From: Planktothrix rubescens CCAP 1459/22
Lineage (GTDB): Bacteria; Cyanobacteriota; Cyanobacteriia; Cyanobacteriales; Microcoleaceae
Assembly: GCA_904830895.1 (NCBI GenBank)
Contig: LR882958.1
Coordinates: 1,296,001 to 1,360,000 of the forward strand
DNA length: 64,000 nt
Direction: 5' to 3'
Both the position numbers and the translations under genes were made by a program. Below the pieces are notes generated by a model that did not search any database, was not told the origin of the DNA, and saw only the letters and a program-made list of their open reading frames with translations. This document shows positions 8,911-26,970 of this stretch, piece after piece (within the stretch, counting starts at the first letter, position 1; every line of letters begins with the position of its first letter).

Positions 8911-9038
8911 AAGCGGTGGTCACAGGACAAAAAACTATATTTATTATATCAAATTTGTCTACAATTGGGCGGTGATAGTTGCCTCCGGCGACAAATTCGT
9001 GGTTAAATAGTTTTATAGCAGATTAGATCAAGGTAATT

Positions 9039-10373
9039 ATGTCTGACTTTTATAGTGTATTGATTAATCAAGCTCGGATTTTGTTGCCAAATGGTGATTT
9101 TTTACTCGGAGATGTTGCTATTGTTGATGGGAAAATCCTTGAGATAGCTCCAGAAATTGATCATCATATACTAGGGGAAGATGATTGGGAAATTATTGAT
9201 GCAGAAGGGTTGACTTTATTGCCCGGTGTGATTGATCCCCAGGTACATTTTAGAGAACCGGGTTTAGAATATAAAGAAGATTTATATACGGCCAGTTGTG
9301 CCTGTGCCAAAGGGGGAGTGACTTCGTTTTTAGAAATGCCCAATACTCGCCCCTTAACTACAACTCAAGCCCTCTTAGATGATAAATTAAGACGGGCTGC
9401 GGAAAAATGTATTGTTAATTATGGTTTTTTTATTGGGGCGACGGCGGAGAATTTACCAGATTTATTAGAAGCTAATCCCACCCCTGGAATTAAGATATTT
9501 ATGGGGTCGATGCACGGAGATTTATTAATTGATCAAGAAGAAATATTAGAGAGTATTTTTGCAAAAGGCGATCGCTTAATTGCAGTTCACGCGGAAAACC
9601 AAGCTCGAATTAATCAACGCCGTCAGGAATTTGCTGGAATCACAGATCCGGCAATTCATTCTACAATTCAAGATAATCAAGCGGCATTAGAAGCCACTCA
9701 ACTCGCCTTAAAACTTGCTAAAAAATATCAACGACGGTTACATATTCTGCATCTATCAACGGGGGAAGAAGCGGAATTATTACGTCAGGAAAAACCAGAA
9801 TGGGTAACAGCAGAAGTCACGCCTCAGCATTTGTTATTAAATATAACAGATTATGCTAAAATTGGCACATTAGCCCAGATGAATCCCCCCTTGCGATCGC
9901 CCCAAGATAATCAAATATTATGGCAAGCGTTATTAGATGGAGTGATTGATTTTATTGCTACCGATCACGCCCCCCATACCTTAGAAGAAAAGGCAAAAGG
10001 CTATCCAAATACGCCATCGGGAATGCCCGGAGTTGAGACTTCTTTACCCGTAATGTTAACACAAGCGATCGCAGGAAAATGCACTGTTCAACAGGTATCA
10101 AATTGGATGTCTACCGCCGTGGCAAAAGCCTATAAAATCCCCAATAAAGGGAAAATAGAAGTGGGTTATGATGCGGATTTAGTGTTAGTAGATTTAGAGA
10201 ATTATTATCCAGTTTTGCGGGAAGAAGTGTTAAGTAAATGTGGTTGGAGTCCCTTTGAAGGTTGGGAGTTAACCGGATGGCCAGAATATACGATTGTTGG
10301 CGGAAAAGTCGTTTATGGAAATGGAAAAGTTAATCCAGAAGTTCGAGGTCAGGCGTTAAGGTTTGATGGGTAA
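9039..10373 (+). CDS. pyrC: Dihydroorotase (amidohydrolase family)
   Basis: Third step of pyrimidine synthesis: interconversion of carbamoyl-aspartate and dihydroorotate. 444 residues, the class I length. Visible features: the metal-site region GVIDPQVHFREPG, the carboxylated-Lys region GIKIFMGSMHG, metal His in IAVHAENQ and LHILHLST, and the catalytic Asp in FIATDHAPH. The first His of the usual HxH pair is Gln (DPQVHF). From memory, a Gln at this position also occurs in other bacterial dihydroorotase-like sequences, so I keep the call but note possible altered metal use. AAGG lies before the ATG. Confidence 0.88.
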   Translation: MSDFYSVLINQARILLPNGDFLLGDVAIVDGKILEIAPEIDHHILGEDDWEIIDAEGLTLLPGVIDPQVHFREPGLEYKEDLYTASCACAKGGVTSFLEMPNTRPLTTTQALLDDKLRRAAEKCIVNYGFFIGATAENLPDLLEANPTPGIKIFMGSMHGDLLIDQEEILESIFAKGDRLIAVHAENQARINQRRQEFAGITDPAIHSTIQDNQAALEATQLALKLAKKYQRRLHILHLSTGEEAELLRQEKPEWVTAEVTPQHLLLNITDYAKIGTLAQMNPPLRSPQDNQILWQALLDGVIDFIATDHAPHTLEEKAKGYPNTPSGMPGVETSLPVMLTQAIAGKCTVQQVSNWMSTAVAKAYKIPNKGKIEVGYDADLVLVDLENYYPVLREEVLSKCGWSPFEGWELTGWPEYTIVGGKVVYGNGKVNPEVRGQALRFDG

Positions 10374-10502
10374 CTTGGGGAATATAAGAAATTCTAATCT
10401 GAATAGCTTAATCCCCCTTTTATTTAGGGAATTTGAGGGAAGTGACAGCCTGGCAACCGATAAATCAAGGTTGTCCCTTCCCGCTAGAAAAAAGGGTAAA
10501 TA

Positions 10503-10844
10503 TTAATATCTGGGCAAAGTAAACCCTTCCGCCGCCGCCCGATATTCCTCAACATCCTCATTAAAATCAATCGGTAAAACAGCAACAACATTTTCATGGG
10601 GACGGGGAATAATCACCCAAGTTTCTAATGCCGCACCATAGGCTTTATCAACGGCTGCAATTCCGGCATCCATCGCGGTTTTAACTTCGGAAACATCCCC
10701 TCGAATCATAATCGTAAACCGTGCACTTCCTGCCCGAATATAGCCCACCAAAGTCACCCGACCCGCTTTAACCATTGCATCGGCGGCGGCTAAAACCCCC
10801 GGAAATCCCTTCGTTTCTAAAGCTCCAACTGCTTGTTCTGCCAT
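10503..10844 (-). CDS. ccmK4: Carboxysome shell hexamer protein CcmK4
   Basis: BMC-domain shell protein of the beta-carboxysome, 113 residues. It has the family fold signatures ETKGFPGVLAAADAMVKAG and IRGDVSEVKTAMDAG. The pore-region and C-terminal segments VIIPRPHENVVAVLPIDF and EEYRAAAEG match CcmK4 as I know it from other cyanobacteria. SD-like GGGAGA lies just before the ATG. It follows ccmK3 in the same direction with a 71-base gap, as at the usual satellite ccmK3-ccmK4 locus away from ccmKLMNO. CcmK3 and CcmK4 are known to form mixed hexamers that tune shell permeability. Confidence 0.93.
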   Translation of the reverse strand: MAEQAVGALETKGFPGVLAAADAMVKAGRVTLVGYIRAGSARFTIMIRGDVSEVKTAMDAGIAAVDKAYGAALETWVIIPRPHENVVAVLPIDFNEDVEEYRAAAEGFTLPRY

Positions 10845-10915
10845 TAAATTTCTCCCAAATTAACTAGACTTTAAAAGTGTTGCAATTGAATATTTTTCGC
10901 AAAATAGAAATTATA

Positions 10916-11224
10916 TTAAGTGCGAAAACGTTCACTCAATTCTGTGTAACCAATAGACATAACATCTACAATGTTCTCAGGGGGGTTGGGAACAACATAG
11001 TAAGTAATTAGTGAACAGCCAAACGTCTTTTCGGCTGCTTCAACACCAGCTTTTACAGCAGGAACCACCTCCGATGTTGGGCCACGAACTGCCACTATAA
11101 ATTCACCCCGTTCTGCTAAATCATAGTAAACAAGGGTAACTCGCGCAGCTTTGACCATCGCATCTGCTGCGGCTAAAACCCCTGGAAAACCCAGGACTTG
11201 TATGACACCCACTGCCTCTGGCAT
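10916..11224 (-). CDS. ccmK3: Carboxysome shell protein CcmK3
   Basis: BMC-domain protein of 102 residues. It begins MPEAVGVIQVLGFPGVL and carries VYYDLAERGEF, VRGPTSEVVPAVKAG and VVPNPPENIVDVM. These differ from CcmK4 in the pore loop and match the CcmK3 type. CcmK3 is thought not to form hexamers alone but to mix with CcmK4. AGGAGA is 5 bases before the ATG, and a TACAAT element about 45 bases upstream could be a -10 box. It heads the ccmK3-ccmK4 pair. Confidence 0.92.
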   Translation of the reverse strand: MPEAVGVIQVLGFPGVLAAADAMVKAARVTLVYYDLAERGEFIVAVRGPTSEVVPAVKAGVEAAEKTFGCSLITYYVVPNPPENIVDVMSIGYTELSERFRT

Positions 11225-11423
11225 TGAAGTCTCCTAGTAAAAACGGAACCGATCAATATCATTGTACGACTCAATGACACTTTCAAGACCCTCTGACTGT
11301 TTTATTTCCTAGAAGATCCTGCTAAATGGGAGATTGCGTAAGTCCTGATAAAGAAAGATTAATTGAAACTTTGAAAGTTCTCAAAAACTGAAATAATATT
11401 CCTGTTGTCTATTGTCTGCATTG

Positions 11424-12899
11424 CTATTCCTGAACCCAAATCGAAACCGAACCCGCAATACAAGAAAATTCACCCCAACCCTGATCATTGGTTTCAATGG
11501 GTTCTTGTATATTCCCCGTGAGATCATAGAATTTAGTATTAGGTTTCCCGACTTCCATCGGTTTAATTCCTTCTGGGCCATCACTTAAAATTACCGCCAT
11601 GGCTTTCGGATGTTCTTCGTCTCCTAGACAAGTCCAACCAATAATATCCGGGTGATCAAAATAGTCATATTGGGGGCCGTAAGCGAAATTTTTACGCGCA
11701 TAAAGACACTGATCAATAAACTGTTTACAGGAAGGTAAAACAACTTTATGTGTATTCCCATCCCGTCCTTTATCTTCATATTCTGCCCCGTAATAATCGC
11801 CATGAAAAATACAAGGATAACCCTGTTGACGTAATAATATTATAGCATAAGCTATGGGTTTAAACCAAGGTTCTACCACGGATTCTAAGGCTTGTAACGG
11901 TTGAGAATCGTGATTTTCCACAAAAGTAACGGCATTCATGGCCCGGTCTTTGACTAATGTTCCATCCAGAATCGTCCGCATATCATGATATCCCCCGGCT
12001 TTACTGGCATAGTGAAAATTATAATGTAAGCTAACATCAAATACCGACATTCTGTCACCTACAGTGTCTAAATACCAATTCAAAACGCTACTATCAGGCG
12101 ACCAATATTCCCCGACTGTAAAAAATTGCCGACCTGTATGTTTTTCTATTTCATCTAACCACTCAGGAAAAAACCAAGCCGAAATATGTTTAATCGCATC
12201 TAAGCGAAATCCATCCACACCCGTAGTATCAAGATACCATTTTGTCCAGTTGCTAATTTCCTTTCTGACTTCTTCGTTTTGGAAGTCTAAATCTGCTCCC
12301 ATTAAATAGGCAAAATTGCCATTTTCTAGGGCGACATAATCATCAAAGGTTTTACCTTCAAATAAATAAACCGTTCCCGATTCTTTGCTAAATTCATCAT
12401 AATCAACGGCATCAAAATGCCACCAATGCCACTCAAATGTAGAATATTTTCCTTTCCGACCCGGAAAGTTAAATAGAGTGTAAGCCTTAATATCTCGTAA
12501 ATCTCCTTTAGGATTTTTTCGATTATTATTAGGGAAGGGCGTTGCTTTAGCAATTTCGCTTCCATCCGCCCCGATTTTATGATTTAATACCGTATCTGCA
12601 TAGACTTCAATTTCTGATTTATGCAGGCTATTAATGGCATCTAAATATTGTTGACGAGTGCCATATTTAGTTCTAATTGATCCTTTTTGATTAAATTCTC
12701 CCAAGTCATAAATATCATAAACCCCATATCCCACATCCATCCCGCCCCCGGTTCCTTTATAAGCCGGAGGCAACCATAAGGCCGTAATTCCCGCATCTGC
12801 TAACTCCTGGGCGTTGTTTTTGAGTTGATTCCACAGACTTCCATCAGCAGGAAGATACCAGTGGAAATATTGCATCATCACACCATTGATTTTAACCAT
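11424..12899 (-). CDS. Cytoplasmic alpha-amylase (GH13)
   Basis: Hydrolyses alpha-1,4-glucans such as glycogen. 491 residues, no signal peptide. The start is typical of the liquefying/cytoplasmic GH13 group (NGVMMQYFHWYLPADG). The conserved regions are present: DTVLNHKIGADG, the nucleophile Asp in GVDGFRLDAIKH (about 235), the acid-base Glu in FFTVGEYW (about 264) and the transition-state Asp in FVENHDSQP (about 330). It would act on internal glycogen stores. It lies upstream of ccmK3 on the same strand but about 200 bases away, so probably a separate unit. Confidence 0.93.
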   Translation of the reverse strand: MVKINGVMMQYFHWYLPADGSLWNQLKNNAQELADAGITALWLPPAYKGTGGGMDVGYGVYDIYDLGEFNQKGSIRTKYGTRQQYLDAINSLHKSEIEVYADTVLNHKIGADGSEIAKATPFPNNNRKNPKGDLRDIKAYTLFNFPGRKGKYSTFEWHWWHFDAVDYDEFSKESGTVYLFEGKTFDDYVALENGNFAYLMGADLDFQNEEVRKEISNWTKWYLDTTGVDGFRLDAIKHISAWFFPEWLDEIEKHTGRQFFTVGEYWSPDSSVLNWYLDTVGDRMSVFDVSLHYNFHYASKAGGYHDMRTILDGTLVKDRAMNAVTFVENHDSQPLQALESVVEPWFKPIAYAIILLRQQGYPCIFHGDYYGAEYEDKGRDGNTHKVVLPSCKQFIDQCLYARKNFAYGPQYDYFDHPDIIGWTCLGDEEHPKAMAVILSDGPEGIKPMEVGKPNTKFYDLTGNIQEPIETNDQGWGEFSCIAGSVSIWVQE

Positions 12900-13001
12900 G
12901 TTCCCTGATTGATATAAAATAGTGAATATGGATTGAGTCTATCTTTGATACAATCTAATGTAAATGGGATAAAAGGGTATGATCGCACCTTTATTGAAAA
13001 C

Positions 13002-16000
13002 ATGAACATAGAAGACATCCAAGACAGCGTTCGGATTGGTATTGAAGTTACCGTCATCCTTAGAACAGGACATCAATTTTCTGGTGTTCTTACTGAGATA
13101 AGGGAGACAAGCATTATTTTACGTCAAGCCTCTGGGACAAAAATGCCTTTGTCTGCTGAAGCGATTGACTGTATTTTCCCAATACAGAGTACGGATTTAT
13201 CTATTGAGATAACACCAATCTTACAAAGTGCGGGGACTACCGCTTCATTACCTACTCGTCTATCCACTTCTTCTAATTTACAAAACAATCTTGAGCAAAA
13301 AAACTCCTTACTACCTTTAAAAACAAATGAATCTCAGTTAGAAAGTCCCACAAACAATAACATTCCTAGATATGCCATTGAAGTTATTACTAAAATAGTA
13401 GAAATAGAGACTCGTTTTAGTACGGCAATTGCTCAAGTCAAACTGGAGCCTTTACCACCTGATTTTAGTACACCTATTGAAATTATTTCTTCACCATCTT
13501 TAGGAGAAAAGAACAGTATGCTCGCTGTATGGAATAAGGTAAAAGAGCAATATGATAATGCTATTAAGAATAAAGATTCTCAACTACTTAATCGACCAAT
13601 TGAAAGTTGTGAACAACTCATCAAAAAGTATCCAAAATTAGGTTGTTCTCGATTCAATTTAGGTTGTATTTACTACCAACAGGGACAGAATCATAAAGCT
13701 GTTGAAGTATTTGAATTAGCCGCTTCTAAATCAAAAGACCCGCGTGTATTTTATAATTTAGCAATCATAGTTCTAAAATCTGAACCAGCTAAATCCTGTT
13801 ATGCTTTACATGAATATTTTAAGATTTCTTCTCCATCAGAAAATATCGTAGCTTGGTATAAGTTTATTGATTTATCACTTAATTCGGGTGTAATTAATCA
13901 ACTCACCAATCTTTTTGAACAAGCTATTGAAAATAATAGAGAAAATGACGGTCGTTTAATAATTGAGAGTGCTGTATTTGCACTGAAAAAGCATAATCAA
14001 AATAAAGAAGCAGAAGAATTGACGGCTTCTCTCATACAACACGATTCGGAACTTGCAATACTGTCACAAATGTTAAAGTCAATGCTGTCCAATCTTGGGC
14101 TAGAAGCAACAGAAGCATATCTTAAACAAGAACAAGAATTAAAACAAGCTCAAGAAAAAGCAAAACGTCAGGACAATCAAATTAAACAACAAAAAGAAGT
14201 TGATAATCTAATTGATTACGCTAAAAGTTTGGCAAAGCGACAACTATATAATCAAGCTATTGCTGAACTTCGTAAAGTTATTGAAAAATCTCCAGAAAAT
14301 CAGATAGCCCAAAACCTTTTAACAGAATATCGTGAAGCAGACAAAGAACGGGGGCTACCCACAGGTTCCGGGGCTTATCCTCAAGCTAAACGTGCCGAGA
14401 TTATAGATAAAGACTTAAAAAAAGCAGAAAAACTATATCGTCAAGCTATTAATGAGAATGACAATGCTGAAAATGCTGTTAAAGATTTAGCTGCACTTCT
14501 TACAAGACAAAATCGAGATCAAGAAGCAATAAAAATTCTTAAAGAATATCTTAATAAAGTTAGTAATAAGCAATCAATTTTAAATATGCTGGCTAATGTC
14601 TATCAACGAGCAGGTAAATACGAAGATGAAATAGATATTTTAAAACAAGTTTTAACTTTTACTAGCTATGATAAACGTTCTACAGTTCTCAAGCGAATTG
14701 CATCGTCTCAGTTTAGATTAGGTGAATATCAAAAAGCAAAAGAAACATTAGAGCAAGCTGTAAAACAAAATCCCAGAGACGAGACTGTACTTAATCTACT
14801 CGAAGCATTGCGTGAGGGAGAGAAAACAGGCGTTTATACAAAATTAGATGCTTTATTCTTAACACAAGAAGGCATGGGTGATATTCAAACTACTTTAAGT
14901 AGTTTTCTAGCATTTCATGTTCACCAATGTGATTATTCAGGAATAGAAGCTTCAAAAATAACATCTAAACAATTCAATGAAAAAGATGTAGAGAAACTAC
15001 AACAAAGAGCAGGTGAAATGCTTGGTACACAACGCCCCAGAGAACGAGCCAGTTATTACCTCTCAGCAGCTAAAATTTTAATAGACTTGGGTTCTAAAGC
15101 AGAAGAATTACTCCCCAGAAAATACCTGAGAAATTTTTGTGCCGCAATGGGTGATGCCTGTATAACAGAGCAAAAACATAGAGACGTAGCACGGAGCTAC
15201 TATGCGGAAGCTTTTTTGATTGCACCTGATTGGGTAAAACAGTTGGACATTAAGCTATCACAATACATTATGCTTTACTATTCTCAAACCGAAGAATTAC
15301 TTAAAACAGAAATTCCATCTGTAGAATCTTGCTTAGAACAAGCTTTAAAAATTACAAACAAAGACTTAGGAACTTCTGTTATTGAAGGATTACTTTATCT
15401 TTCCTGGCTTAATCGTGAAGTGGGTCGTGTCCTTATTAATAAAATCAATCCCAATAAACGGTTACGGGAATTAGTACAAAATTTATGTTATCAGACTTGT
15501 GGTGAAAAAGGTGAACCAACAGGTGATGATTCTGTTTTCTTAGAACTATGGGAGCGAGGACGTGAACTTATTCGCCGTCGTAATCAAGAGGTTTTGGATG
15601 AGTTTGCATTCCTAAACTCAATAGTAATTAGTTTAGATTCTGTAAGAGAACAAATTGAGAAGGTTCAATTATTGGGACAAAAAGTACGAGGGACATTAGA
15701 CAAACAACGTCTCAATATAATCCAAGAAATATTAAATTCTATGTATGATTATAGTCAGCAGCAATCCTATATGGAGCGTGAATATTTTAAAGCAATAATA
15801 CAAAATCGAGTTTCAGAAGTTCTTGAAGATATAGAAAAAAATCCTACTAAATATTCATGGGAGTTATTTCGTCCTTATCTGTTAGATTTGTCTAGCACAA
15901 TTAAAAATCATTTTGATGGAATTCAAAAAGTATCTGAACCCGAGCAATTAATCACTGAACTTTCAATTGATTCTTATACGCCTGATGAGAATTCAAATAT

Positions 16001-17471
16001 CGAGTGTCAAATTACGATTACCAATGAAAATGGAAAGAGTCCAGCAAGTTCTATAAAAATTTGTGTGCAGCCATCCCCAAATAATGAATATATTGTTCAA
16101 GTCAAACATATTGATGTTAGTGAAGCATTATATGGAGGTAAATCTGTAACTTGTCTAATTCCCGTAACTGTTACTGAAATAGCGAAAGAATCACAGGTAT
16201 TTACATTGTACTATGGGCTATCCTTTATCACTCGTAGAGATGAAAAGAAAACAAGCGAAGATACCCAGTCTATTAAGCTTTATTCAAACACAGAATTTAA
16301 AGAAATAAAAAATCCTTATGCTACTTATGCACAAGGTAGTACAGTAGAAAATAAAAATATGTTTTATGGACGCGATCAGTTAATTAATGTTTTACTATCA
16401 TCTATTCGTAATGCTTCTTCTGCAAAAAGTTTGGTAATATACGGACAAAAACGAGCGGGTAAATCATCTGTACTTTACCATTTGAAACAACAACTAGAAT
16501 TACCTATTATTCCTGTTTCTTTTAGCATAGGCGATATTATAGATGATTTTTCGGTAGGAACTTTTTTATATCGAATTATTCAATGTATTGAAGATACTTT
16601 TGAAGACTTAAATGACGAAGGCTATCCAGCTATTGAAGTTAAACGCCCTACATTAGAAGAACTTCAACAAAATTCTCAACTTCAATTTCAGGATTACATG
16701 ACTAACCTATGCCGAAGTTTAAAGAAAGTAGAGGAATATAAAGAAGCTACAATTATGCTTTTAATTGATGAATTTTCCTATATTTATGGTGAAATTATGC
16801 GAGGCCGTATTCGAGATACATTTATGAAATCTTGGAAAGCTTTACTAGAAAAACGCCACTTTGGGGCAGTTTTAGTAGGGCAAGATACAATGCCTCAGTT
16901 TATTGCTCATTTCCCTAATGAGTTTCAAGTAGCAGAAAGTCAGCGTATTTCCTATTTAGCAGATGATGATGCTCGTTGTTTAATTATTAATCCTATTCTA
17001 ATTCCTGATACGAAAGAAAGTCGCTATAAAGGAGATGCTGTTAATTTATTGCTCAGATTAACAGCAGGAAGCCCTTATTACATTCAGATATTTTGCAACC
17101 GATTAGTTGAATATATGAATCGGAAAAAGGCTATTTATGTAACTGATGCAGATATTGAAACCATAAAAGAAGATTTAATTAGTGGACATAATTCTCTTGA
17201 TGATTCTGTTTTTGATAATTTAATTAGTGCAGGTGATAGTAGTATTGATGATATAGGCAAAGAAGATGCGTTAGCTGTTTTACGAGATATTGCGAATGGG
17301 GCGCGAATTCAGTCCCACTGCGATCGCTCTGCTATTAATTGCCATACTTCACAACCTATAGATAAAATTTTAGATAATTTTGTTGGAAGAGAAGTTATAG
17401 AAAAACAAGGGACGTCTCTCTATCGAATAAAAGTTGGTTTGTTCAAAGAATGGTTACTAGCACATCAATAA
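13002..17471 (+). CDS. Sm-like / TPR / beta-domain / P-loop ATPase (conflict-system-like sensor)
   Basis: About 1489 residues from the ATG at 13002; the frame is open back to a TTG at 12933. Domains, in order: an Sm/LSm-like strand-rich N-terminus (GIEVTVILRTGHQFSGVL, about 10-55); TPR-like helical repeats and a Lys/Glu coiled coil (about 190-600); a long helical region; a beta-sandwich-like domain (about 1005-1110) just before the ATPase. The entry motif NPYATYAQG...MFYGRD precedes Walker A (GQKRAGKS, Lys1154). Walker B is MLLIDEF (Asp1256-Glu1257). A winged-helix-like C-terminus follows. No membrane segment. It is followed 18 bases later by a second ATPase with an HEPN tail. Sensor-type STAND-like role inferred; function not known. 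Confidence 0.85.
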   Translation: MNIEDIQDSVRIGIEVTVILRTGHQFSGVLTEIRETSIILRQASGTKMPLSAEAIDCIFPIQSTDLSIEITPILQSAGTTASLPTRLSTSSNLQNNLEQKNSLLPLKTNESQLESPTNNNIPRYAIEVITKIVEIETRFSTAIAQVKLEPLPPDFSTPIEIISSPSLGEKNSMLAVWNKVKEQYDNAIKNKDSQLLNRPIESCEQLIKKYPKLGCSRFNLGCIYYQQGQNHKAVEVFELAASKSKDPRVFYNLAIIVLKSEPAKSCYALHEYFKISSPSENIVAWYKFIDLSLNSGVINQLTNLFEQAIENNRENDGRLIIESAVFALKKHNQNKEAEELTASLIQHDSELAILSQMLKSMLSNLGLEATEAYLKQEQELKQAQEKAKRQDNQIKQQKEVDNLIDYAKSLAKRQLYNQAIAELRKVIEKSPENQIAQNLLTEYREADKERGLPTGSGAYPQAKRAEIIDKDLKKAEKLYRQAINENDNAENAVKDLAALLTRQNRDQEAIKILKEYLNKVSNKQSILNMLANVYQRAGKYEDEIDILKQVLTFTSYDKRSTVLKRIASSQFRLGEYQKAKETLEQAVKQNPRDETVLNLLEALREGEKTGVYTKLDALFLTQEGMGDIQTTLSSFLAFHVHQCDYSGIEASKITSKQFNEKDVEKLQQRAGEMLGTQRPRERASYYLSAAKILIDLGSKAEELLPRKYLRNFCAAMGDACITEQKHRDVARSYYAEAFLIAPDWVKQLDIKLSQYIMLYYSQTEELLKTEIPSVESCLEQALKITNKDLGTSVIEGLLYLSWLNREVGRVLINKINPNKRLRELVQNLCYQTCGEKGEPTGDDSVFLELWERGRELIRRRNQEVLDEFAFLNSIVISLDSVREQIEKVQLLGQKVRGTLDKQRLNIIQEILNSMYDYSQQQSYMEREYFKAIIQNRVSEVLEDIEKNPTKYSWELFRPYLLDLSSTIKNHFDGIQKVSEPEQLITELSIDSYTPDENSNIECQITITNENGKSPASSIKICVQPSPNNEYIVQVKHIDVSEALYGGKSVTCLIPVTVTEIAKESQVFTLYYGLSFITRRDEKKTSEDTQSIKLYSNTEFKEIKNPYATYAQGSTVENKNMFYGRDQLINVLLSSIRNASSAKSLVIYGQKRAGKSSVLYHLKQQLELPIIPVSFSIGDIIDDFSVGTFLYRIIQCIEDTFEDLNDEGYPAIEVKRPTLEELQQNSQLQFQDYMTNLCRSLKKVEEYKEATIMLLIDEFSYIYGEIMRGRIRDTFMKSWKALLEKRHFGAVLVGQDTMPQFIAHFPNEFQVAESQRISYLADDDARCLIINPILIPDTKESRYKGDAVNLLLRLTAGSPYYIQIFCNRLVEYMNRKKAIYVTDADIETIKEDLISGHNSLDDSVFDNLISAGDSSIDDIGKEDALAVLRDIANGARIQSHCDRSAINCHTSQPIDKILDNFVGREVIEKQGTSLYRIKVGLFKEWLLAHQ

Positions 17472-17473
17472 AT

Positions 17474-17479
17474 AAGGAG
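17474..17479 (+). promoter_or_regulatory. Ribosome binding site of the ATPase-HEPN gene
   Basis: AAGGAG lies in the 18-base gap between the two ATPase genes, about 10 bases before the ATG at 17490. It supports co-transcription and independent initiation of the second gene. Confidence 0.7.
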
Positions 17480-17489
17480 ATTAAAGACA

Positions 17490-18998
17490 ATGCAAGATAA
17501 TTTTTGTAATCCCTTTGCCAATAACGGTAATATTGTTTATGGGGATGATTTTATAGGTCGTCAAGATCAAATAAGAACTATTCAACAACGAGTTATTAAT
17601 TCCTCACAAGCAGGTTGTTTAGCTATTGTCGGTGCGCCTAGAATTGGTAAATCAAGTCTAGCTTATCATGCTTTAATTTATCCTCAGAAAAAATTGAATG
17701 AACAAAGAATATTAAGTTTTAGAATTAACCTTCCAGATGTTAAAAACCATCAAGAGTTATTCCGAGAATTGGTAAAACAAACATTAGAAACTTTAGATGA
17801 TGCTGATTCTGAAGATGAATCTCTCTTTATTAAAGGAAAATCATTACTTGAGAAAAATCTTCAGTGGCTAGACCTTCAATTTGAAGTGCGTCGTTTTTTT
17901 AAAACGGTTAAACGTTCTAAATGGCGTGTCGTTGCGGTGATCGATGAATTTGATGAAGCACGCCATATTTTTAAGGATGGTGTGGGATTTCAAGCATTAA
18001 GAGAATTAGCCTATCAACCTGAGTGGAGTATCTGTTTAGTTACAGTTTCAAGACGTTCTTTATCTGAAATTGCTAACCAAGCTGATTCTGATATCTCTAA
18101 TCTTCCTGGTATTTTTAAAGATGAAACTCTCCGATGTTTTAATCAAGAAGAACTCCGAGACTTATTGAATAAATTGCAAAAAATCGGTTTTGATGTTACT
18201 GATGAGTCTTTTAAATTTATCTGGGATAATACAGGAGGGCATCCACACTTGGCTTCAGCTTTAGCATTTGAATTAGCTAACTCATGGTTAAATAGTCACC
18301 AGTATAATTTAGAGCAAACTCTGCAAGAATCTACATCTGAATTTTTAAAATATTATGATAATTTAATAGATATTCTTAAAGAAGATGGTTCTCTTGATAA
18401 ATTGCTTCAAATTTTGTTTGGCCCTTTAATTACAGTTACTAAATTTGATGTAGAAAAATTTATGAGGTATGGATTGATAGAACCTAATAGTGATGGATAT
18501 TACAAAGTTTTTTCCTCTCATTTTGAGGATTATCTACGATTAGTAGGACGTTCAATAGATTTATGGCCACTTTGGCGAGATACAGAAAAAAAATTGCGAT
18601 TACTAATTACTCAAATTATGGAAAATCAGTATAGGGAAGATTGGGTTTCTCAATTGGAAAAGGATCACCCTAAATTAAAAAAGATGATTGATCAATGTCG
18701 ATTGGCTCAAGAAAAAGAAAAGAAATCATTTGGAGGACGAGCCTCAACTAACATACTAGACTTTACTTATCCAATGAATCTATATGATATTATCACGGCA
18801 AACTGGAATTTATTTGAACCAATTCTTAAACAAGATAAAAAGTATTGGTCGGATCGCTTTGGACTTCTTGCTAAACTTCGTAATCCGATGGCTCACATAC
18901 GAGATGAAGTCATACAAGAGCATGAACGGCAAATGGCTGAGGGATATTGTCAAGAAATACTTTATAATTTGGAAGCATATCAAAAAAGAGAAAGCTAG
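17490..18998 (+). CDS. P-loop ATPase with C-terminal HEPN ribonuclease-like domain
   Basis: 502 residues. The N-terminus repeats the layout of the partner gene: NPFANNGNI...FIGRQDQI, then Walker A GAPRIGKSS (Lys54) and Walker B VVAVIDEFDEA (Asp152-Glu153). An arginine-finger-like loop (VTVSRRSLSEI) and the sensor region NTGGHPHLASALA follow, then a winged-helix part around 290-350. The last 150 residues are helical and carry R464-NPMA-H469, the R-x4-H motif of HEPN RNases, in a Swt1-like HEPN context (DTEKKLRLLI at its start). Inferred role: nucleotide-controlled RNA cleavage triggered via the upstream sensor. Without homologue searches the target is unknown. Confidence 0.85.
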   Translation: MQDNFCNPFANNGNIVYGDDFIGRQDQIRTIQQRVINSSQAGCLAIVGAPRIGKSSLAYHALIYPQKKLNEQRILSFRINLPDVKNHQELFRELVKQTLETLDDADSEDESLFIKGKSLLEKNLQWLDLQFEVRRFFKTVKRSKWRVVAVIDEFDEARHIFKDGVGFQALRELAYQPEWSICLVTVSRRSLSEIANQADSDISNLPGIFKDETLRCFNQEELRDLLNKLQKIGFDVTDESFKFIWDNTGGHPHLASALAFELANSWLNSHQYNLEQTLQESTSEFLKYYDNLIDILKEDGSLDKLLQILFGPLITVTKFDVEKFMRYGLIEPNSDGYYKVFSSHFEDYLRLVGRSIDLWPLWRDTEKKLRLLITQIMENQYREDWVSQLEKDHPKLKKMIDQCRLAQEKEKKSFGGRASTNILDFTYPMNLYDIITANWNLFEPILKQDKKYWSDRFGLLAKLRNPMAHIRDEVIQEHERQMAEGYCQEILYNLEAYQKRES

Positions 18999-19040
18999 AT
19001 GATTAGAGGACTAGAACTTAGTTGAGACTTAAAACAATTG

Positions 19041-19304
19041 CTAGAGCGTCACTGATCTCTTGTATAATTTGATCGCTGCATAGTCCTGATACTTATAGAA
19101 ATCTTGATCGCCTGAATCAACAAACTGAGTCAAATCACTGCCTTCTACATAGTAAGAACGCATTATTTCAGCCGCATTAATTAAGCTGAGTTTTTCAGGT
19201 TTCTCCATTTCTTCACGCACTAACCGCAACGCAAATTCAATAATCTCTAGGCGTTCCCGATTCGGCATTTGCTTAATGGCTTCGAGGATTTGAGGCTTGA
19301 TCAT
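19041..19304 (-). CDS. Orphan antitoxin-like protein
   Basis: 87 residues. The N-terminal helix pair (EAIKQMPNRERLEIIEFALRLV) and the acidic tail ending DFYKYQDYA resemble cyanobacterial antitoxins that sit in front of a PemK/MazF-type toxin. After QDYA, where I expect such proteins to stop, this frame runs on for 11 residues (AIKLYKRSVTL) and no toxin follows. The gene converges on the HEPN gene 42 bases away. I infer that the toxin was lost by deletion and the antitoxin frame extended into foreign sequence. Alternatively it protects against a toxin encoded elsewhere. Confidence 0.6.
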   Translation of the reverse strand: MIKPQILEAIKQMPNRERLEIIEFALRLVREEMEKPEKLSLINAAEIMRSYYVEGSDLTQFVDSGDQDFYKYQDYAAIKLYKRSVTL

Positions 19305-19420
19305 AGTTTTTGATGTTGTTACTCCATTACAGCATTTACATTAATGGGGGAAGCGTTATAGGTTCAGAACTTACACACCCAACCCCCACAGTTTTTTCCA
19401 CAACTGAATATGGAATGGAT

Positions 19421-21211
19421 TTATTTTTCAGTTTTGGGTTTGTAAGTTGAAGTAACTTGGAGTTCCTTTAACTGTTTTTGATCAACACTTGAAGGGGCAT
19501 TAGTTAATAGACAGCCCGCTTGTTGGGTCTTAGGAAATGCAATCACATCTCGAATAGATTCCTCTCCAGATAATAACATAGCCAATCGATCTAAACCGTA
19601 GGCAATACCGCCATGGGGAGGGGTTCCATATTCAAAGGCTTCTAATAAAAAGCCGAATTTGCTGTAGGCTTCCTCCAGGGTTAATCCAATAGTTGAAAAT
19701 ACCTGTTCTTGAATTTCTCGTTTATAAATTCTTAGACTACCACCGCCTATTTCATAGCCATTTAAAACTATATCGTAGGCCTGCGCCCGGGCTTGGGATA
19801 AATCATTAATATCCTCTGGATAGGGAGCCGTAAAGGGGTGATGTAGGGCTTCTAAACGTTTTTCTTCGTCATTCCATTCAAACATGGGAAACTCAACAAT
19901 CCACAATAAATTAATTTTACTCGGATCAATTAGTTCTAATTCTTTCCCAATAAATAGACGTAAACGGTCTAAGGTTTTATTAACTGTGGCAATATCCCCC
20001 GCCCCAAATAATAGTAAATCTCCGGCTTTAGCATTGGTTCGGGTTAATATTTCCTGTTTTTGTTCGGCGGTTAGGTTATCTTTAATTGCGCCAATGGTAT
20101 CAATACCATCCTCCCGTACTCGAATAAATGCTAACCCTTTAGCCCCCGCTTCACAGGCTTCTTTAAACAGATCGCCACCGGGTTTAATTCGCACATTAGA
20201 AATCGCATCATTTCCCCCCGGAATCGGTAAAATTTTAACAATTCCTCCCGATGCTACCGACCCTGAAAATACCTTAAATCCACAGTTTTTAACAATATCA
20301 GAAACATCCACTAACTCTAAACCAAAGCGAGTATCGGGTTTATCGCTACCATAACGATCTAGGGCTTCTTTATAGGTTAAACGGGGGAAAGGAAGGGGAA
20401 TTTCTATACCTTTAACGGTTTTAAAAATATGAGCAACTAAGGCTTCATTTAACGCCAGAATTCCTTCCTGGGTCATAAAGCTCATTTCCATATCTAATTG
20501 GGTAAATTCCGGTTGGCGATCGGCGCGTAAATCCTCATCTCGGAAACATCTTGCTATTTGATAATATCGATCAAATCCTGATACCATTAATAATTGTTTG
20601 AACAGTTGGGGCGATTGGGGTAAAGCAAACCATTCCCCAGGATTAACTCGACTCGGAACTAAATAATCCCGCGCTCCTTCAGGAGTTGAACGGGTAAGAA
20701 TTGGGGTTTCAACTTCGATAAAATGCTCTTGATCTTCTAAAAACCGCCGCATGGCTTTGACCACTTGATGACGCAATTGTAAATTGCGAGTCATGCGTTC
20801 TCGACGTAAATCTAAATAGCGATATTTGAGGCGTAAATCTTCCCGAACTGTTTCGGTTTCTGAGGCGGAAATTTGAAAGGGTAATTGTTTTCCCAGTCCA
20901 TTCAGTAGTTCAATGTGATCGGCGTAAATTTCTATTTCTCCGGTGGCTAATTTGGGGTTGAGGGACTCGGGGGGACGTTGGGAGACTCGCCCGGTGATTT
21001 TAACTACATATTCATTTCGCAGACCTTCGGCGGCCTTGTAGGAGTCGGGGGTTCGTTCTGGGTCGCTGACAATTTGAACAATACCCGTGCGATCGCGTAA
21101 ATCTAAAAATATTACACCCCCATGATCGCGACGCCTATCAACCCATCCGCAGAGGGTGAGAGTTTCGCCAAGATGGGTGGATCGGAGATTGCCGCAGTAG
21201 TGGGTTCGCAT
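19421..21211 (-). CDS. aspS: Aspartyl-tRNA synthetase
   Basis: Charges tRNA-Asp (and perhaps tRNA-Asn, as cyanobacterial bacterial-type AspRS may be non-discriminating). 596 residues, the bacterial length. Visible: an N-terminal OB anticodon-binding domain ([19 protein letters not shown]), class II motif 2 ([20 protein letters not shown]), the GAD insertion domain in the middle, and motif 3 ([14 protein letters not shown]). No neighbouring pathway gene. Upstream lies a heptamer repeat tract. Confidence 0.98.
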
Positions 21212-21286
21212 GACTCTTAATGAAAGTTAAACTAAGGTTTAAATTAGGGCAACTTATCAGTATAAGTCAATGAGACATCACTCGTC

Positions 21287-21395
21287 AGGGAATAGGGAAC
21301 ACCGGAACAGGGAACACCGGATCAGGGAACACCGGATCAGGGAATAGGGAATAGGGAATAGGGAATAGGGAATAGGGAATAGGGAATAGGGAATC
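21287..21395. repeat. Heptamer tandem repeats (GGGAATA) and CACCGGA repeat block
   Basis: About eight consecutive GGGAATA heptamers (21341-21395), preceded by several GGGAACACCGGATCA-like 14/15-mers (21297-21340). They fill the gap between aspS and the kinase gene. This is a classic cyanobacterial STRR. No gene inside. Confidence 0.9.
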
Positions 21396-21416
21396 AGTTT
21401 GGTGTAAGTTAAAATA

Positions 21417-22568
21417 TCAACTGCCGAATTTGGGGTTGATGGGTAAACAAATTCTAAATAGACTTCCCTGACCGATTTGGGATTCCATTTGAATCATGCC
21501 TTTGTGGGCTTCTACAATTAGTGAAATTAGGTGTAATCCTAACCCACTACCGGAACGTTTATTATTGCCTTGACGGAATCGTTCAAAGATGAGAACTTGA
21601 TCTTCGGGAGCTATACCAATTCCGCTATCTTCAACTTCCAAAACCATGACTTTTTGAGGTTGATTGCTAATATTAAGTTGCATTTCTGTTAGATACAGAC
21701 GAATTTTGACACTCCCCCGATCGGTAAATTTAATCGCATTTCCGACTAAATTAGTGACAACCCGCCGAATTTCTAAGGGGTCGCCAATAATAACTGAAGT
21801 CTGGGTTAGACAATCCTGGGAAGGGGTAAATTCTAGGGATAATTCTTTATTTTGAATCAGGGGGCTGAGTTCTGCAATTACTTCTTGGACTAATTGACCT
21901 ATATCAAAATAGGAGAAGGTTAAGGTTTTTCGACCCGCTTCATACCGATAAACCTCCAGTAAGGTATTAACCATTTGCAGAAGGTTTTGGTTACTTTTAA
22001 TCATGGATGCGATCGCTTCTCCCATCGTAGAAGAAATTTCCCCTAGGGCACCTTGTTGGAATAAATGTAACATTCGATCGGCTGCTACCAAAGGCGTCCG
22101 CAGATCATGGGTCAGGCGGGAAACGAAGTCTTCCCGTTGTCGAGACATCGCTTTCTGTTGATCAATGCTATGTTTAAGTCTCAGGAGCGAGCGTACCCGG
22201 GCGAGTAATTCATCAACCTCAACGGGTTTGCGAATGAAGTCATCCGCCCCGGCATCTAATCCCTCAACCACACTAGAATGATCATGGGCAGTAATTAATA
22301 AAATGGGGATAAAGGGAAGATCGAGATTTTTGCGAATCCGTCGAGTGACTTCATAGCCATCAATTCCCGGCATCATTACATCTAATAATATTAAATCAGG
22401 AGGCTCGGTTTTAATCAAAGCTAAGGCAGAAATGCCATCGGGTTTACAGATAACTTCGTATCCTTCTTCGGCTAAAATAGCTTCCACTAAAAATAGGTTA
22501 TCGGGGGAATCATCAACGGCTAAAATTCGATCAATGGATTTTGCAGGGGGGGTAATAGAACGGGGCAT
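21417..22568 (-). CDS. Receiver-histidine kinase
   Basis: 383 residues from the ATG at 22568 (MPRSITPPAKS). An N-terminal receiver has its acceptor at Asp63 (LLDVMMPG). A HisKA domain carries His154 in RLTHDLRTPLVAADRML. A complete ATPase domain shows VTNLVGNAIKFT, EVEDSGIGIAPED and SGSGLGLHLI. No membrane segment: a soluble kinase. The frame stays open to 22754, but those extra residues come from the adjacent mobile-element end, so I reject that start. It is divergent from a NarL-type regulator, now separated from it by a TnpB fragment. An HPt gene lies 1.9 kb away. These three probably formed a phosphorelay. Confidence 0.88.
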   Translation of the reverse strand: MPRSITPPAKSIDRILAVDDSPDNLFLVEAILAEEGYEVICKPDGISALALIKTEPPDLILLDVMMPGIDGYEVTRRIRKNLDLPFIPILLITAHDHSSVVEGLDAGADDFIRKPVEVDELLARVRSLLRLKHSIDQQKAMSRQREDFVSRLTHDLRTPLVAADRMLHLFQQGALGEISSTMGEAIASMIKSNQNLLQMVNTLLEVYRYEAGRKTLTFSYFDIGQLVQEVIAELSPLIQNKELSLEFTPSQDCLTQTSVIIGDPLEIRRVVTNLVGNAIKFTDRGSVKIRLYLTEMQLNISNQPQKVMVLEVEDSGIGIAPEDQVLIFERFRQGNNKRSGSGLGLHLISLIVEAHKGMIQMESQIGQGSLFRICLPINPKFGS

Positions 22569-22677
22569 AATTTTGAAAATTTTTTCTGAAATAAACATGG
22601 TGATGAGGTTAATATCAGCCTTGAATTTGGGATTAATTTTAACAACAAATTGGCGAATAATAAAGAACTTTACAAAG

Positions 22678-22806
22678 CCAGGGTGGGAGCGTGAAAGCCC
22701 ACTGGCTTCAGCCGTGGGATGAAACGCGACGCAGGCACTTTTAAGTGCCGTCATCTACCAATTAATTTGTACCCAGTTATTAGATATTTATGTTATCATA
22801 TTTTCC
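22678..22806. mobile_element. Left end of an IS200/IS605-type element
   Basis: Two hairpins precede the TnpB frame: CCCAC/GTGGG with a short loop near 22699-22718, and GCACTT-TT-AAGTGC near 22735-22748. Such imperfect palindromes are the ends recognised in single-strand transposition. The segment sits between the true 5' end of the kinase gene and the TnpB start at 22807. Confidence 0.6.
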
Positions 22807-23622
22807 ATGATCAAAGTAACTCGGACGATTAAATTAAAATTCGCAAAACTCAACCGTTGTCAAGCTCAAATGTTTGAGCAAATGACGGAAGAAAACACGC
22901 AGATTGCTAATAAGCTGTTGTCATTGCCAATTAAAGAACGGCGAAAAATGACAACAGCTAAAATCATGTCCGAGTTAAAATCTGCTCTGGTCAATCAAGT
23001 TATTCGACATACCACATCCCCAACGGGTCGTAAAACCAAGCAATATAAAGTTCTTCCTGTAGAAGTTAACAATCAAAATTGGAAATTAACTCAAAAAGGG
23101 AGTACCTATTCAATTAGCTTCCCGACCCTCAAAGGTGAAAAAAGAATCCCCATTGAAGTAGCATCTCCTCATTGGCAACCCGTTTTAGATGGATTGTTAG
23201 AGGAAACAATTCAAGGGGGTTCTTTTAAATTGATTAAACATCGAAATAAGTGGTATGCCTATCTGTCAATTACAGAGGATGTTCCAGAAGTTGAGACAGA
23301 GAAAAGATTGGGATGTGACCGAGGGCAGAATAATTTAGCGGTAGTTGCACCAAAAGAAGGTTTCGGCAAGTTCTTTAATGGTCAAAGTGTTAAGCATCGA
23401 AGACGTTATTTTCAACAACGTAGAAAACAACTTCAAGAAGCTAAAAAGTTTCGAGCTTTAAAGAAATGGAACAAAAAAGAGCAACGATGGATGGAAGCTA
23501 TTAACCATACAGTCAGTCGCCGAATTGTTCGTTTTGCCCAATACCATAACGCCGATATTGTTATAGAGGATTTGGAAGGATGTCGTAAAACCATGAAACA
23601 GAGCCAGAAATCTCGTTATGTC
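22807..23622 (+). pseudogene. Truncated TnpB (IS605 OrfB) fused in frame to a response regulator
   Basis: The N-terminal 272 residues of a TnpB RNA-guided nuclease. The basic N-terminal part and the first two RuvC motifs are present: Asp171 in GCDRGQNNLAVV and Glu254 in DIVIEDLEG. The sequence stops at KTMKQSQKSRYV, losing the zinc-finger cysteines and the third RuvC acidic residue, so nuclease activity is not expected. No stop codon follows: the frame continues without a break into the regulator at 23623, giving a 511-codon chimera. The right end of the element and any guide-RNA region are gone. No tnpA is present. Confidence 0.88.
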
Positions 23623-24342
23623 ATGACTAAAATCAATATTGTTCTGGTAGAGGATCATGATTTAACCCGGGTGGGGTTGAGAACGGCGTTACAACAGGAC
23701 AGTAATATCAAGATTGTTGGGGAGGCGGCTAATGGGAAAAAGGGTTTGGAAATTCTCAAACAAACCCAGCCCGATATTGCGATTATTGATATTGGTTTAC
23801 CTGATATGGATGGTATTGAATTAACCCAAAAATTTAAGCAACATATTGCCAGCAGTGGGGCGCGGGAAACTAAAGTTCTGATCCTGACTATGCACGATAA
23901 TGAGGATGCGGTTATGGGAGCTTTTGCGGCGGGTGCAGATTCCTATAGTGTTAAGGATGTGAGTCTTGATAAACTCAAGGATGCGATTCATACTACCTAT
24001 GAAGGAAATGCTTGGATTGATCCTGTAATTGCTCGTACAGTTCTCAAACAAGTGAAGAATAAACAACCGGATATTACGACTCCGGGTGATCAGAAAACCG
24101 TGATGATTAATGCGGTAGAACCTGAGTATCAAGAATTTTTAAAATCTTGCCCTTTAACAGAAAGGGAATTAGAGGTTTTAGAATTAATTGTGGCTGGACG
24201 GAGTAATGCTGAAATTGCCGAAAAACTTTATATTACGGTAGGAACGGTTAAGACCCATGTTCGCAGTATTCTGAATAAGCTCTGTGCTGATGATCGTACT
24301 CAGGCTGCGGTTCGGGCTTTGCGTTCCGGTTGGATTGATTAG
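23623..24342 (+). CDS. NarL/FixJ-type response regulator (in frame with upstream TnpB fragment)
   Basis: 239 residues from the ATG at 23623. The receiver (ILVEDHDLTRVGLR-like start, acceptor Asp56 in AIIDIGLPDMDG) is followed by a LuxR-type helix-turn-helix (LTERELEVLELIVAGRSNAEIAEKLYITVGTVKTHV region, about 175-225). It is a DNA-binding transcription factor, probably the partner of the divergent receiver-kinase. The deletion that removed the TnpB 3' half also brought the regulator directly behind it, so its own promoter and leader are missing or lie inside the TnpB fragment. It can be made either from its own ATG or as a 511-residue fusion from 22807. Confidence 0.9.
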   Translation: MTKINIVLVEDHDLTRVGLRTALQQDSNIKIVGEAANGKKGLEILKQTQPDIAIIDIGLPDMDGIELTQKFKQHIASSGARETKVLILTMHDNEDAVMGAFAAGADSYSVKDVSLDKLKDAIHTTYEGNAWIDPVIARTVLKQVKNKQPDITTPGDQKTVMINAVEPEYQEFLKSCPLTERELEVLELIVAGRSNAEIAEKLYITVGTVKTHVRSILNKLCADDRTQAAVRALRSGWID

Positions 24343-25650: not shown

Positions 25651-26970
25651 ATGTCTTCTCTGAATAGCCCTATTATTTCACAGGTTAGGTTTCTACAGCG
25701 TCAGGTTGCCACTTTACTACTATATCAAGATATTTTTGATCATGAAATTGGCCAAGCATTTCTATATCTTTTAGAAATATTTCATCATAGTGAATCGAGT
25801 ATTTTAAATTATTTAAAAGCCTATGGAACTTGGTTTCAAGTCCAAGCCAAATATCAACAAAATTGGCAAGAACATCTAATCACTCAAATTTTAAGGGCGG
25901 ATAATCCCTTTACCCAACAGGCCCAACAAACCACTTTTGATCAATTACCTCCGGTATTAATTGAAGCGGCAAAACAAGATTTAAAAATCCTCCAAAGTCT
26001 CTATCAATATAATGGGGGAAAAATCAGCCATTGGTTAAGAACCGTCGCCCAGTTATCGGAAAACCCGATAATTTGGCAGTCGCAACCGCAACCGTTAGAA
26101 AAAATCCAAGAATCACCCTTACGCAATCAATTAAAAACCCTGGAAAATTGGTCGGAAGCAGTAGAAAATTTAGCGAATCATTATCATCAATTTGGAACGG
26201 GTTTATTTGCCCAAGCCTATGCTTTTCGTTGGCAAAATGGCAAGTTACTGACTATTAATCACCCAGATCCGGTGCATTTGAGCCAGTTAATTGGATATGA
26301 AAATCAACGGGATCTTTTATTGAAAAATACAGAAATATTATTAGCAGGATATCCGGCTTTAAATGTTCTATTATATGGCAGTCGGGGGTCGGGTAAATCC
26401 TCCTTAATTAAATCGTTATTACATGAATATAGCGATCGCGGTTTACGTTTAATTGAAGTGGCAAAATCCGATTTAAAAGACTTACCGTTAGTGGTGGAAC
26501 AATTACGAGGGGGGCCGCAGAAATTTATTATTTTTGTCGATGATTTATCCTTTGAAGAAGATGACGATGCTTTTAAATCTTTGAAAGTCGTATTAGAAGG
26601 AAATTTAACCGCCCGTCCACAAAATGTAATTGTTTATGCTACTTCTAACCGTCGTCATTTAATTCGAGAATATTTTGAAGATCGACCTTCCCCGAAAGAT
26701 CAAGATGAGGTTCATGTTTGGGATACGGTACAGGAAAAATTATCCTTTAGCGATCGCTTTGGTTTAACCTTAACCTTTCCACCTGCTGACCAGAATACCT
26801 ATTTGAATATGGTACGACATTTAGCCAGTCAAGGGGGAATTAAAATCAGTCCCGAAGATTTGCAGTTTCGCGCCTTACAATGGGCGACTCGTCATAATGG
26901 ACGTTCGGGACGAACTGCGCGGCAATTTGTTGACTTTTTGACGGCGGAATTGGCGGTTTTTGGAAAATAA
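25651..26970 (+). CDS. DUF815-family AAA ATPase
   Basis: 439 residues. The N-terminal 190 residues are helical and specific to this family. The C-terminal ATPase has Walker A LLYGSRGSGKSSL (about 246-256), Walker B FIIFVDDLSFEEDD, a sensor-1 region IVYATSNRRHLIREYF and a C-terminal lid with GRSGRTARQF. DUF815 proteins are close to AAA+ loaders; the cellular role is poorly known. Followed by the TerB-like gene in the same direction, 83 bases on. Confidence 0.9.
   Translation: MSSLNSPIISQVRFLQRQVATLLLYQDIFDHEIGQAFLYLLEIFHHSESSILNYLKAYGTWFQVQAKYQQNWQEHLITQILRADNPFTQQAQQTTFDQLPPVLIEAAKQDLKILQSLYQYNGGKISHWLRTVAQLSENPIIWQSQPQPLEKIQESPLRNQLKTLENWSEAVENLANHYHQFGTGLFAQAYAFRWQNGKLLTINHPDPVHLSQLIGYENQRDLLLKNTEILLAGYPALNVLLYGSRGSGKSSLIKSLLHEYSDRGLRLIEVAKSDLKDLPLVVEQLRGGPQKFIIFVDDLSFEEDDDAFKSLKVVLEGNLTARPQNVIVYATSNRRHLIREYFEDRPSPKDQDEVHVWDTVQEKLSFSDRFGLTLTFPPADQNTYLNMVRHLASQGGIKISPEDLQFRALQWATRHNGRSGRTARQFVDFLTAELAVFGK

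Follow-up and report, generated by a model that had tools for sequence, protein, structure and literature searches.

Two adjacent genes of the cyanobacterium Planktothrix rubescens CCAP 1459/22 encode P-loop ATPases of unequal size. As judged by sequence comparison, they form a rare branch, armed with a HEPN domain, within a wider cyanobacterial class of such unequal pairs. The genes lie in a 64,000-nucleotide stretch (hereafter, the window, with position 1 at its first nucleotide) of the 5.46-Mb contig LR882958.1 of a 5.7-Mb genome. We consider it probable that the two proteins constitute an ATP-dependent switch of two subunits whose output is RNA cleavage, most likely deployed in defence against phages or other invaders via dormancy or abortive infection. 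At the sequence level, the case is built on the domains of the two proteins and their intact motifs at the active sites, a neighbourhood conserved in other genomes, the deep pairing of ATPases of two types, the presence of other neighbours in one relative, and signs that the locus has recently been exchanged and has decayed. The features of the pair, all on the plus strand, are as follows (aa, amino acids; TPR, tetratricopeptide repeat).

13002..17468, gene 1, large subunit, 1489 aa: Sm/Hfq-like domain, TPRs, conserved middle, beta-rich stretch and ATPase; predicted sensor or hub
13002..13214, Sm/Hfq-like domain of gene 1, residues 1-71: a helix and five strands
13608..13775, TPR region 1 of gene 1, residues ~203-258 (Pfam)
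14397..14810, TPR region 2 of gene 1, residues ~466-603 (Pfam)
14892..16271, family-specific middle region of gene 1, also found in the G020, G032 and G047 genomes
15954..16310, conserved beta-rich stretch of gene 1, residues ~985-1103
16305..17123, large-type STAND/ORC-like ATPase domain of gene 1: K1154, D1256-E1257
17490..18995, gene 2, small subunit, 502 aa: ATPase and HEPN; predicted effector
17508..18344, small-type STAND ATPase domain of gene 2: nSTAND1, 31.4 bits (cut-off 27.1); K54, D152-E153
18552..18980, Swt1-like HEPN domain of gene 2: R464-N-P-M-A-H469

Paired small and large ATPases in cyanobacteria

The two genes are separated by 18 bp on the same strand, with an AAGGAG box preceding gene 2, and both proteins contain the Walker A, Walker B and GxP-type motifs of STAND/ORC-like NTPases. 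The adjacency of the two P-loop ATPases and their apparent paralogy had been proposed in an initial annotation made from the sequence alone; the coordinates and strand bear out the former, and phylogenetic analysis of 53 ATPase domains supports the latter. The wider class to which both genes can be assigned lies beyond what that annotation could see.

Of 386 genomes of the phylum, 42 were matched by a profile built on gene 2 and two relatives of it, and many of the 42 encode a small and a large open reading frame (ORF) side by side. The phylum searches covered samples of 291 or 386 genomes from a larger group that evidently do not include G020, G032 and G047, so that absence from these samples is not proof of absence; in the two 386-genome searches, with the gene 2 profile and with the middle region of gene 1, four candidates were scored per genome. 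We fetched 20 loci, ten chosen because both ATPase hits had already been seen and ten by a gene-2-type hit. A second ATPase adjoins in 19 of these, including nine of the ten picked by the gene-2-type hit (all except that in G090), although for one of the nine, in G095, the large-type neighbour had been seen beforehand. The small gene comes first in all 22 ordinary pairs, a count that includes a pair from the same P. rubescens genome and two more loci, whereas the large gene comes first in the window and G047 pairs.

In the maximum-likelihood tree of the 53 domains, which come from 28 loci (midpoint root), 25 small ATPases (ORFs of 332-523 aa) are separated by one branch from 25 large ones (726-1676 aa, with one cut short at 395). 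These sequences represent 26 loci, 24 of which contribute both types. The branch has support of 94/97, the small/large distinction requires one change in 98% of 200 bootstrap trees, and none of 500 shuffles gave a value as low. Labels were assigned by ORF length and position, with L109_7303 (ORF cut short) labelled large by hand, and four rows were dropped before tree construction, namely, the DUF815 protein at window position 25651 and the fragments L096_9259, L105_6601 and L105_7036. Because gene 1 and gene 2 served as queries in finding the loci, near relatives are favoured. Each of the two main groups of ordinary pairs contains the same loci among its small and its large members (11 of 11 in one group; in the other, 9 of 9 among those with both rows), and the window pair falls on the matching sides, gene 2 with the small and gene 1 with the large ATPases.

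The two types also differ in their motifs. The P-loop signature I-G-K is found in 24 of 25 small ATPases and in none of the 25 large ones, and the late motif is H-P in 22 of the 25 small ATPases, as opposed to Q-P in 20 and S-P in three of the 25 large ones. The Walker B D-E pair is present in all large ATPases, compared with 13 of 25 small ones, among them gene 2 of the window; given the absence of the Walker B glutamate from the remaining 12, the small subunit in many pairs may bind the nucleotide without hydrolysing it. L057_3970, an ATPase outside all groups, combines a position on the large side of the tree with the small-type I-G-K and has no Walker B glutamate. The position of the two window ATPases on opposite sides of one branch, together with the type-specific motifs, identifies the pair, by sequence, as a member of this class.

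Among the ordinary small subunits, four were searched against Pfam: one, in L062 (G101), is fused to a trypsin domain, and in three nothing beyond the ATPase scored above the cut-offs. The ordinary pair of the P. rubescens genome itself (L059 8506-12179) consists of overlapping genes, and its large protein begins with Ala/Val/Gly-rich repeats. A related ATPase at L063 6924-10157 carries a fused PRTase-CE conflict-effector domain (Pfam, 181 bits).

The C-terminal region of gene 2 had been annotated as HEPN-type, and sequence comparison upholds this assignment. The Pfam HEPN_Swt1 model scored 27.0 bits on the gene 2 protein, just below the cut-off of 27.5, and 29.3 bits, above it, in a genome-wide scan. 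Alignment of the C-terminus by hhalign to two sets of HEPN_Swt1 matches drawn from this and other genomes gave E 5.5e-9 and probability 96% with five sequences, and E 3.8e-5 and 71% with 11, and placed R464-N-P-M-A-H469 on the R-N/H-x-x-A-H of those matches. The HEPN motif R-x4-6-H with a polar residue after the arginine is thus present in gene 2; the G047 relative has RNPLAH, and that of G032 has RSPMAY, with loss of the histidine. Furthermore, the PADLOC candidate-defence model PDC-M34B matches the HEPN part (E 3.2e-11). A single-sequence structure model of this part, all-helical and with a predicted local distance difference test (pLDDT) score of 47, is too poor to contribute. By the profile and motif comparisons, the C-terminus belongs to the Swt1-like HEPN superfamily; on the Pfam score alone, the assignment is borderline. 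Matches of two HEPN sequences to PDB entries were discarded as chance (three HDA1 chains, E 0.011-0.012, with the best single stretch at E 3.4; RNase HII, E 0.35), and we rejected the presence of a Swt1-like HEPN domain as proof of RNase activity.

HEPN_Swt1 proteins of ~400-440 aa with RHKVAH or RNKVAH occur at L149 7570-8775, L154 6469-7755 and L155 7429-8751; in L149, from the same genome as the window, and in L154, the HEPN_Swt1 ORF comes after a ~1530-aa glutamate-synthase-like gene (named from its translation).

The architecture previously described for gene 1, with a Sm-like N-terminus, TPRs, a beta domain (here, a conserved beta-rich stretch) and a P-loop ATPase, also holds, with the TPRs and the ATPase (AAA_22, 28.0 bits; cut-off 27.0) detected by Pfam. 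Residues 1-71 comprise the N-terminal helix and the five-strand barrel of the Sm/Hfq fold. The beta-rich stretch has no PDB match up to E 10, none of the PADLOC models matched gene 1, and neither protein matched the Avs models at E up to 1. The G047 homologue of gene 1 includes a cold-shock-like stretch (Pfam CSD, 20.3 bits, under the cut-off of 27). The Hfq-like domain on the predicted sensor points to RNA as a possible trigger.

Relatives, probable exchange and decay of the locus

We searched 148 genomes as relatives, the genome of the window included; the gene 1 search scored three candidates per genome, so that its counts are lower bounds. Gene 1 matches with at least 35% identity over at least 390 residues were found in at least four genomes (the window, G020, G032 and G047), and the good gene 2 matches were the window itself, G032 (52%), G047 (43%) and a piece in G008 that contains stops (87% over residues 180-402). 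That the two genes are conserved as neighbours, on which the initial annotation had staked its claim of a two-gene system, is evident in G047, a genome from another genus, where the orthologous pair is intact with the order and strand of the window. In G032, the genes are adjacent as well but convergent and broken: a stop breaks gene 2, in which a tyrosine also stands in place of the catalytic histidine, and gene 1 is interrupted too. A remnant of the pair occupies the same site in G008, which belongs to the same genus as the window, and a TPR-containing piece of a protein resembling gene 1 is found in G013 (51% over 185 residues, in a 192-aa ORF). In the phylum samples, the middle region of gene 1 matched two of 386 genomes (its own and one weak match), and the HEPN profile A3, with E limited to 0.01, matched four of 291 (the genome of the window, the remnant in G008, G207 and a weak hit). 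Searches of a genome contig collection for relatives of gene 2 and gene 1 gave pattern matches, none of which was confirmed.

The G020 homologue of gene 1 has 1254 aa, a Sm-like start and, over 861 aa, 59% identity. After it, on the same strand, come a gene for an EAD1-Trypsin_2 protein (347 aa), a 136-aa ORF and a gene for an EAD1-ATPase-Trypsin_2 protein (818 aa); no gene 2 match was obtained in this genome among the 10 of 21 candidates scored. These neighbours look like an effector swap, which would fit gene 1 being a hub with exchangeable effectors. The ATPase of the 818-aa protein falls on the large side of the tree, beside the gene 1 homologues; the G020 locus is hence organised differently around gene 1, instead of having a small-type partner whose effector has been replaced. 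Downstream of the G047 pair is a NERD-UvrD helicase gene (L056 4522-6405; PADLOC C3a187, E 2.6e-133), and a kinase gene near the G032 pair matches PD-T4-6 models (E 1.2e-134). These neighbours mildly support a defence role for the two pairs; the support is only mild because such helicases and kinases also have other roles.

The pair differs from its surroundings in G+C content, with 33-35% across the two genes versus 38-43% in the flanks, and its flanking genes read as an amylase and an aspartyl-tRNA synthetase (from translations, with no family search). In G487, a genome of the same species that gave no gene 2 match, the stretches matching window positions 9001-11307 and 19420-22675 adjoin, with both the amylase-like gene and the pair missing; in all, ~8.1 kb of the window (11308-19419) is absent there. 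G003 lacks the pair, and its amylase-like gene stands beside aspS, the matched stretches being 243 bp apart. G008 contains the amylase-like gene, the start of gene 1 and pieces of gene 2. Identity to G008 is 89.6% in the amylase-like gene and rises to 98.7% in the gene 1 start region (155 bp), 96.0% in the gene 2 piece (24 of 605 positions differ) and 97.2% in a downstream stretch (251 bp). Such a jump suggests that the locus was exchanged recently and then decayed in G008. The 24 differences in the gene 2 piece are spread over codon positions as 8, 4 and 12 (10 synonymous and 11 nonsynonymous codons), a distribution from which we make no claim on selection.

Two copies of a short inverted repeat lie at the edges of the pair.

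12956..12966, plus strand, left copy of the inverted repeat, 11 nt: edge of the pair; may terminate a mobile unit, a lead only
19333..19343, minus strand, right copy of the inverted repeat, 11 nt: edge of the pair

The sequence TAATGTAAATG has only two copies in the window, at 12956 and 19343; both face inward and lie immediately beyond the two genes. By chance, 0.09 matches are expected, and two copies were found in one of 100 shuffles; an inverted match of such length between the two edges arose in five of 300 shuffles. The full repeat is imperfect (24 nt, 75% complementary, 11 nt exact). The right copy coincides with the point, 19341, at which similarity to G003 begins, and the left copy is off any similarity break (12910 for G003; none there for G008). 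The repeat was tested only after being noticed and thus, given also the position of the left copy, is a lead only. No direct repeat joins the two edges, and promoter-like and terminator-like sites are at chance level (22 versus 26.7 and four versus 3.2 in shuffles, respectively). The locus is probably mobile.

Several observations concern the adjacent sequences. Window positions 18988-19328 align to two pieces in G008 (L058 9062-9680) that flank 278 bp lacking in the window, and these 278 bp hold most of a gene for a PemK/MazF-like toxin (its ORF is open in G008; Pfam, 88.7 bits). At 22807-24342, a single ORF combines an IS605 OrfB-like stretch with a response regulator containing a LuxR-type helix-turn-helix; G487 and G003 have no match for ~22676-23615, which suggests a transposon remnant fused ahead of the regulator. 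Carboxysome-type shell genes and others in the window, named from translations, fit a cyanobacterial source.

Proposed function and comparison with known systems

STAND ATPases usually assemble in response to a trigger and in a nucleotide-dependent manner, and the active form of HEPN RNases is a dimer. Combined with the deep pairing of the two ATPases, these properties lead us to infer a hetero-oligomer in which gene 1 would sense and gene 2 would cut RNA. Under this model, the Sm/Hfq-like domain, the TPRs and the beta-rich stretch of gene 1 would receive the trigger, perhaps an RNA; the ATPase of gene 2 would pair with that of gene 1, with the HEPN domains held apart until the trigger arrives. 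ATP-driven assembly would then join the HEPN domains into active dimers that cleave RNA and stop growth, resulting in dormancy or abortive defence.

Several observations weigh against a defence switch of this kind. The G032 copy, with its tyrosine in place of the catalytic histidine, is broken in both genes, and outside the window only one intact pair, that of G047, was found. Gene 2 has no match in plasmids, and alignments to viral contigs gave no match for either gene. The HEPN Pfam scores of gene 2 fall on either side of the cut-off, that of the G047 copy is below it (23.5), and the model of the fold is poor. The support of the branch separating small from large ATPases is just under the strong-support mark of the tree tool. 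Finally, the window neighbours, as named from translations, look like housekeeping genes, and we rejected a defence-island setting for the pair on these grounds.

An unlikely alternative is a toxin-antitoxin-like or stress pair, in which the gene 2 RNase would be a toxin silenced by gene 1 and released under stress or upon loss of gene 1, with phages being incidental. Such an arrangement would be compatible with two adjacent genes of patchy and probably mobile distribution, with the decay seen in one relative, where pieces of gene 2 persist but almost nothing of gene 1, and with the PemK/MazF-like gene adjoining the G008 remnant; HEPN/MNT toxin-antitoxin pairs (PMC7641770) provide a known precedent. 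The retention of gene 1 in G020, where the scored candidates included no gene 2, speaks against it, as do the ordinary small subunits, with a trypsin in one case and nothing beyond the ATPase above the cut-offs in the other three. Moreover, no antitoxin is known to approach the size of a 1489-aa multidomain ATPase.

Even less probable is a regulatory, non-suicidal RNA-processing complex, in which the Sm-like domain, the TPRs and, in relatives, cold-shock-like domains would bind RNA and the HEPN domain would trim specific transcripts as part of normal physiology. The Sm/Hfq-like fold and the subthreshold CSD match in G047 are in line with this possibility, but the rarity and patchiness of the pair, with gene 1 matched in at least four of the 148 genomes searched, the lack of a gene 2 match in the same-species genome, and the broken or remnant state of the locus in three genomes (G032, G008 and G013) are not. 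That the HEPN domain is a non-catalytic adaptor, with the pair signalling through another partner, is very improbable: the G032 tyrosine and the eukaryotic Swt1 HEPN domains listed as inactive in PMC3710099 would fit, but both the window and G047 keep the arginine and histidine, the G032 copy is in any case a broken one, and the STAND-TPR-S1 fusions are listed in the same source as mostly active.

We favour the two-subunit defence switch. It is possible, albeit short of probable, that the paired cyanobacterial ATPases are a class of unrecognised two-protein STAND switches in which an ancient ATPase pair, asymmetric in the Walker B glutamate, forms an obligate hetero-oligomer, similarly to ORC/Cdc6- or RFC-type machines, with exchangeable sensors on the large subunit and exchangeable effectors (HEPN RNase, trypsin or none) on the small one. 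The window pair would then be the RNase-armed, Sm/Hfq-sensing form, which might detect foreign RNA and might move as one unit with short inverted repeats at its ends. STAND immune switches are usually described as single chains bearing the sensor, the ATPase and the effector; should the class be real, switches with two unequal ATPases would be built on a two-component plan, with each subunit exchanging its own part, the sensor on one and the effector on the other.

AVAST (Avs) and other single-chain STAND sensors combine a STAND ATPase, a repeat sensor and an effector; the logic is similar, but theirs resides in one protein and that of the window in two ATPase subunits. The ordinary cyanobacterial pairs (for example, L059, L106 and L062) share with the window pair the adjacent small and large types, the motifs and the split in the tree. 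They differ in gene order, in the large protein, which often has a hydrophobic start (by eye), and in the small one, which carries an unnamed N-terminal stretch, nothing, or a trypsin domain rather than HEPN.

Membership in three known types of system was considered and rejected. The EAD-linked NTP-dependent conflict systems of multicellular bacteria, as presented in PMC7159879 and PMC8195603, consist of NTPase cores with interchangeable effectors, and the G020 relative has EAD1-trypsin genes. Pfam found no EAD, MoxR, vWA or VMAP in gene 1 or gene 2 (for gene 1, among the 25 of 27 families listed; the neighbours were not scanned systematically), and a ternary system of this kind, with EAD on a core component or a MoxR-vWA core, was therefore rejected. 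The HEPN-DUF499 (Type-1 BR) systems, as covered in PMC12839542, share HEPN_Swt1 joined to an ATPase; however, their HEPN is N-terminal and they include a methyltransferase and a helicase, whereas the HEPN of the window is C-terminal and the neighbours that were read are not such genes. With no DUF499 match and the flanks reading as described above, Type-1 BR/PDC-M34 was rejected, as was a HEPN/MNT toxin-antitoxin module, given that no nucleotidyltransferase is among the gene 1 Pfam matches listed.

The literature search, mostly without subscription papers, found no description of paired small and large ATPases or of a Sm-like STAND protein. The initial annotation had not recognised the domain combination as a named system, and within this literature that holds, except that a single-chain relative in kind is tabulated in PMC3710099. 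Table 1 of that paper lists Swt1-like HEPN domains fused to STAND ATPase, TPR and S1 (Npun_F6454, MED222_16016 and Desac_1927), and HEPN-STAND proteins with cold-shock-like domains are mentioned there as well. Compared by the table description only, these fusions resemble the window pair in the HEPN family, the STAND ATPase, the TPRs and a beta domain of the RNA-binding type, but they are single proteins, whereas the window encodes two proteins with two ATPase types and an additional Sm/Hfq-like domain. Thus, HEPN-STAND-TPR-S1 fusions have already been published, and what is new is the split, two-ATPase variant.

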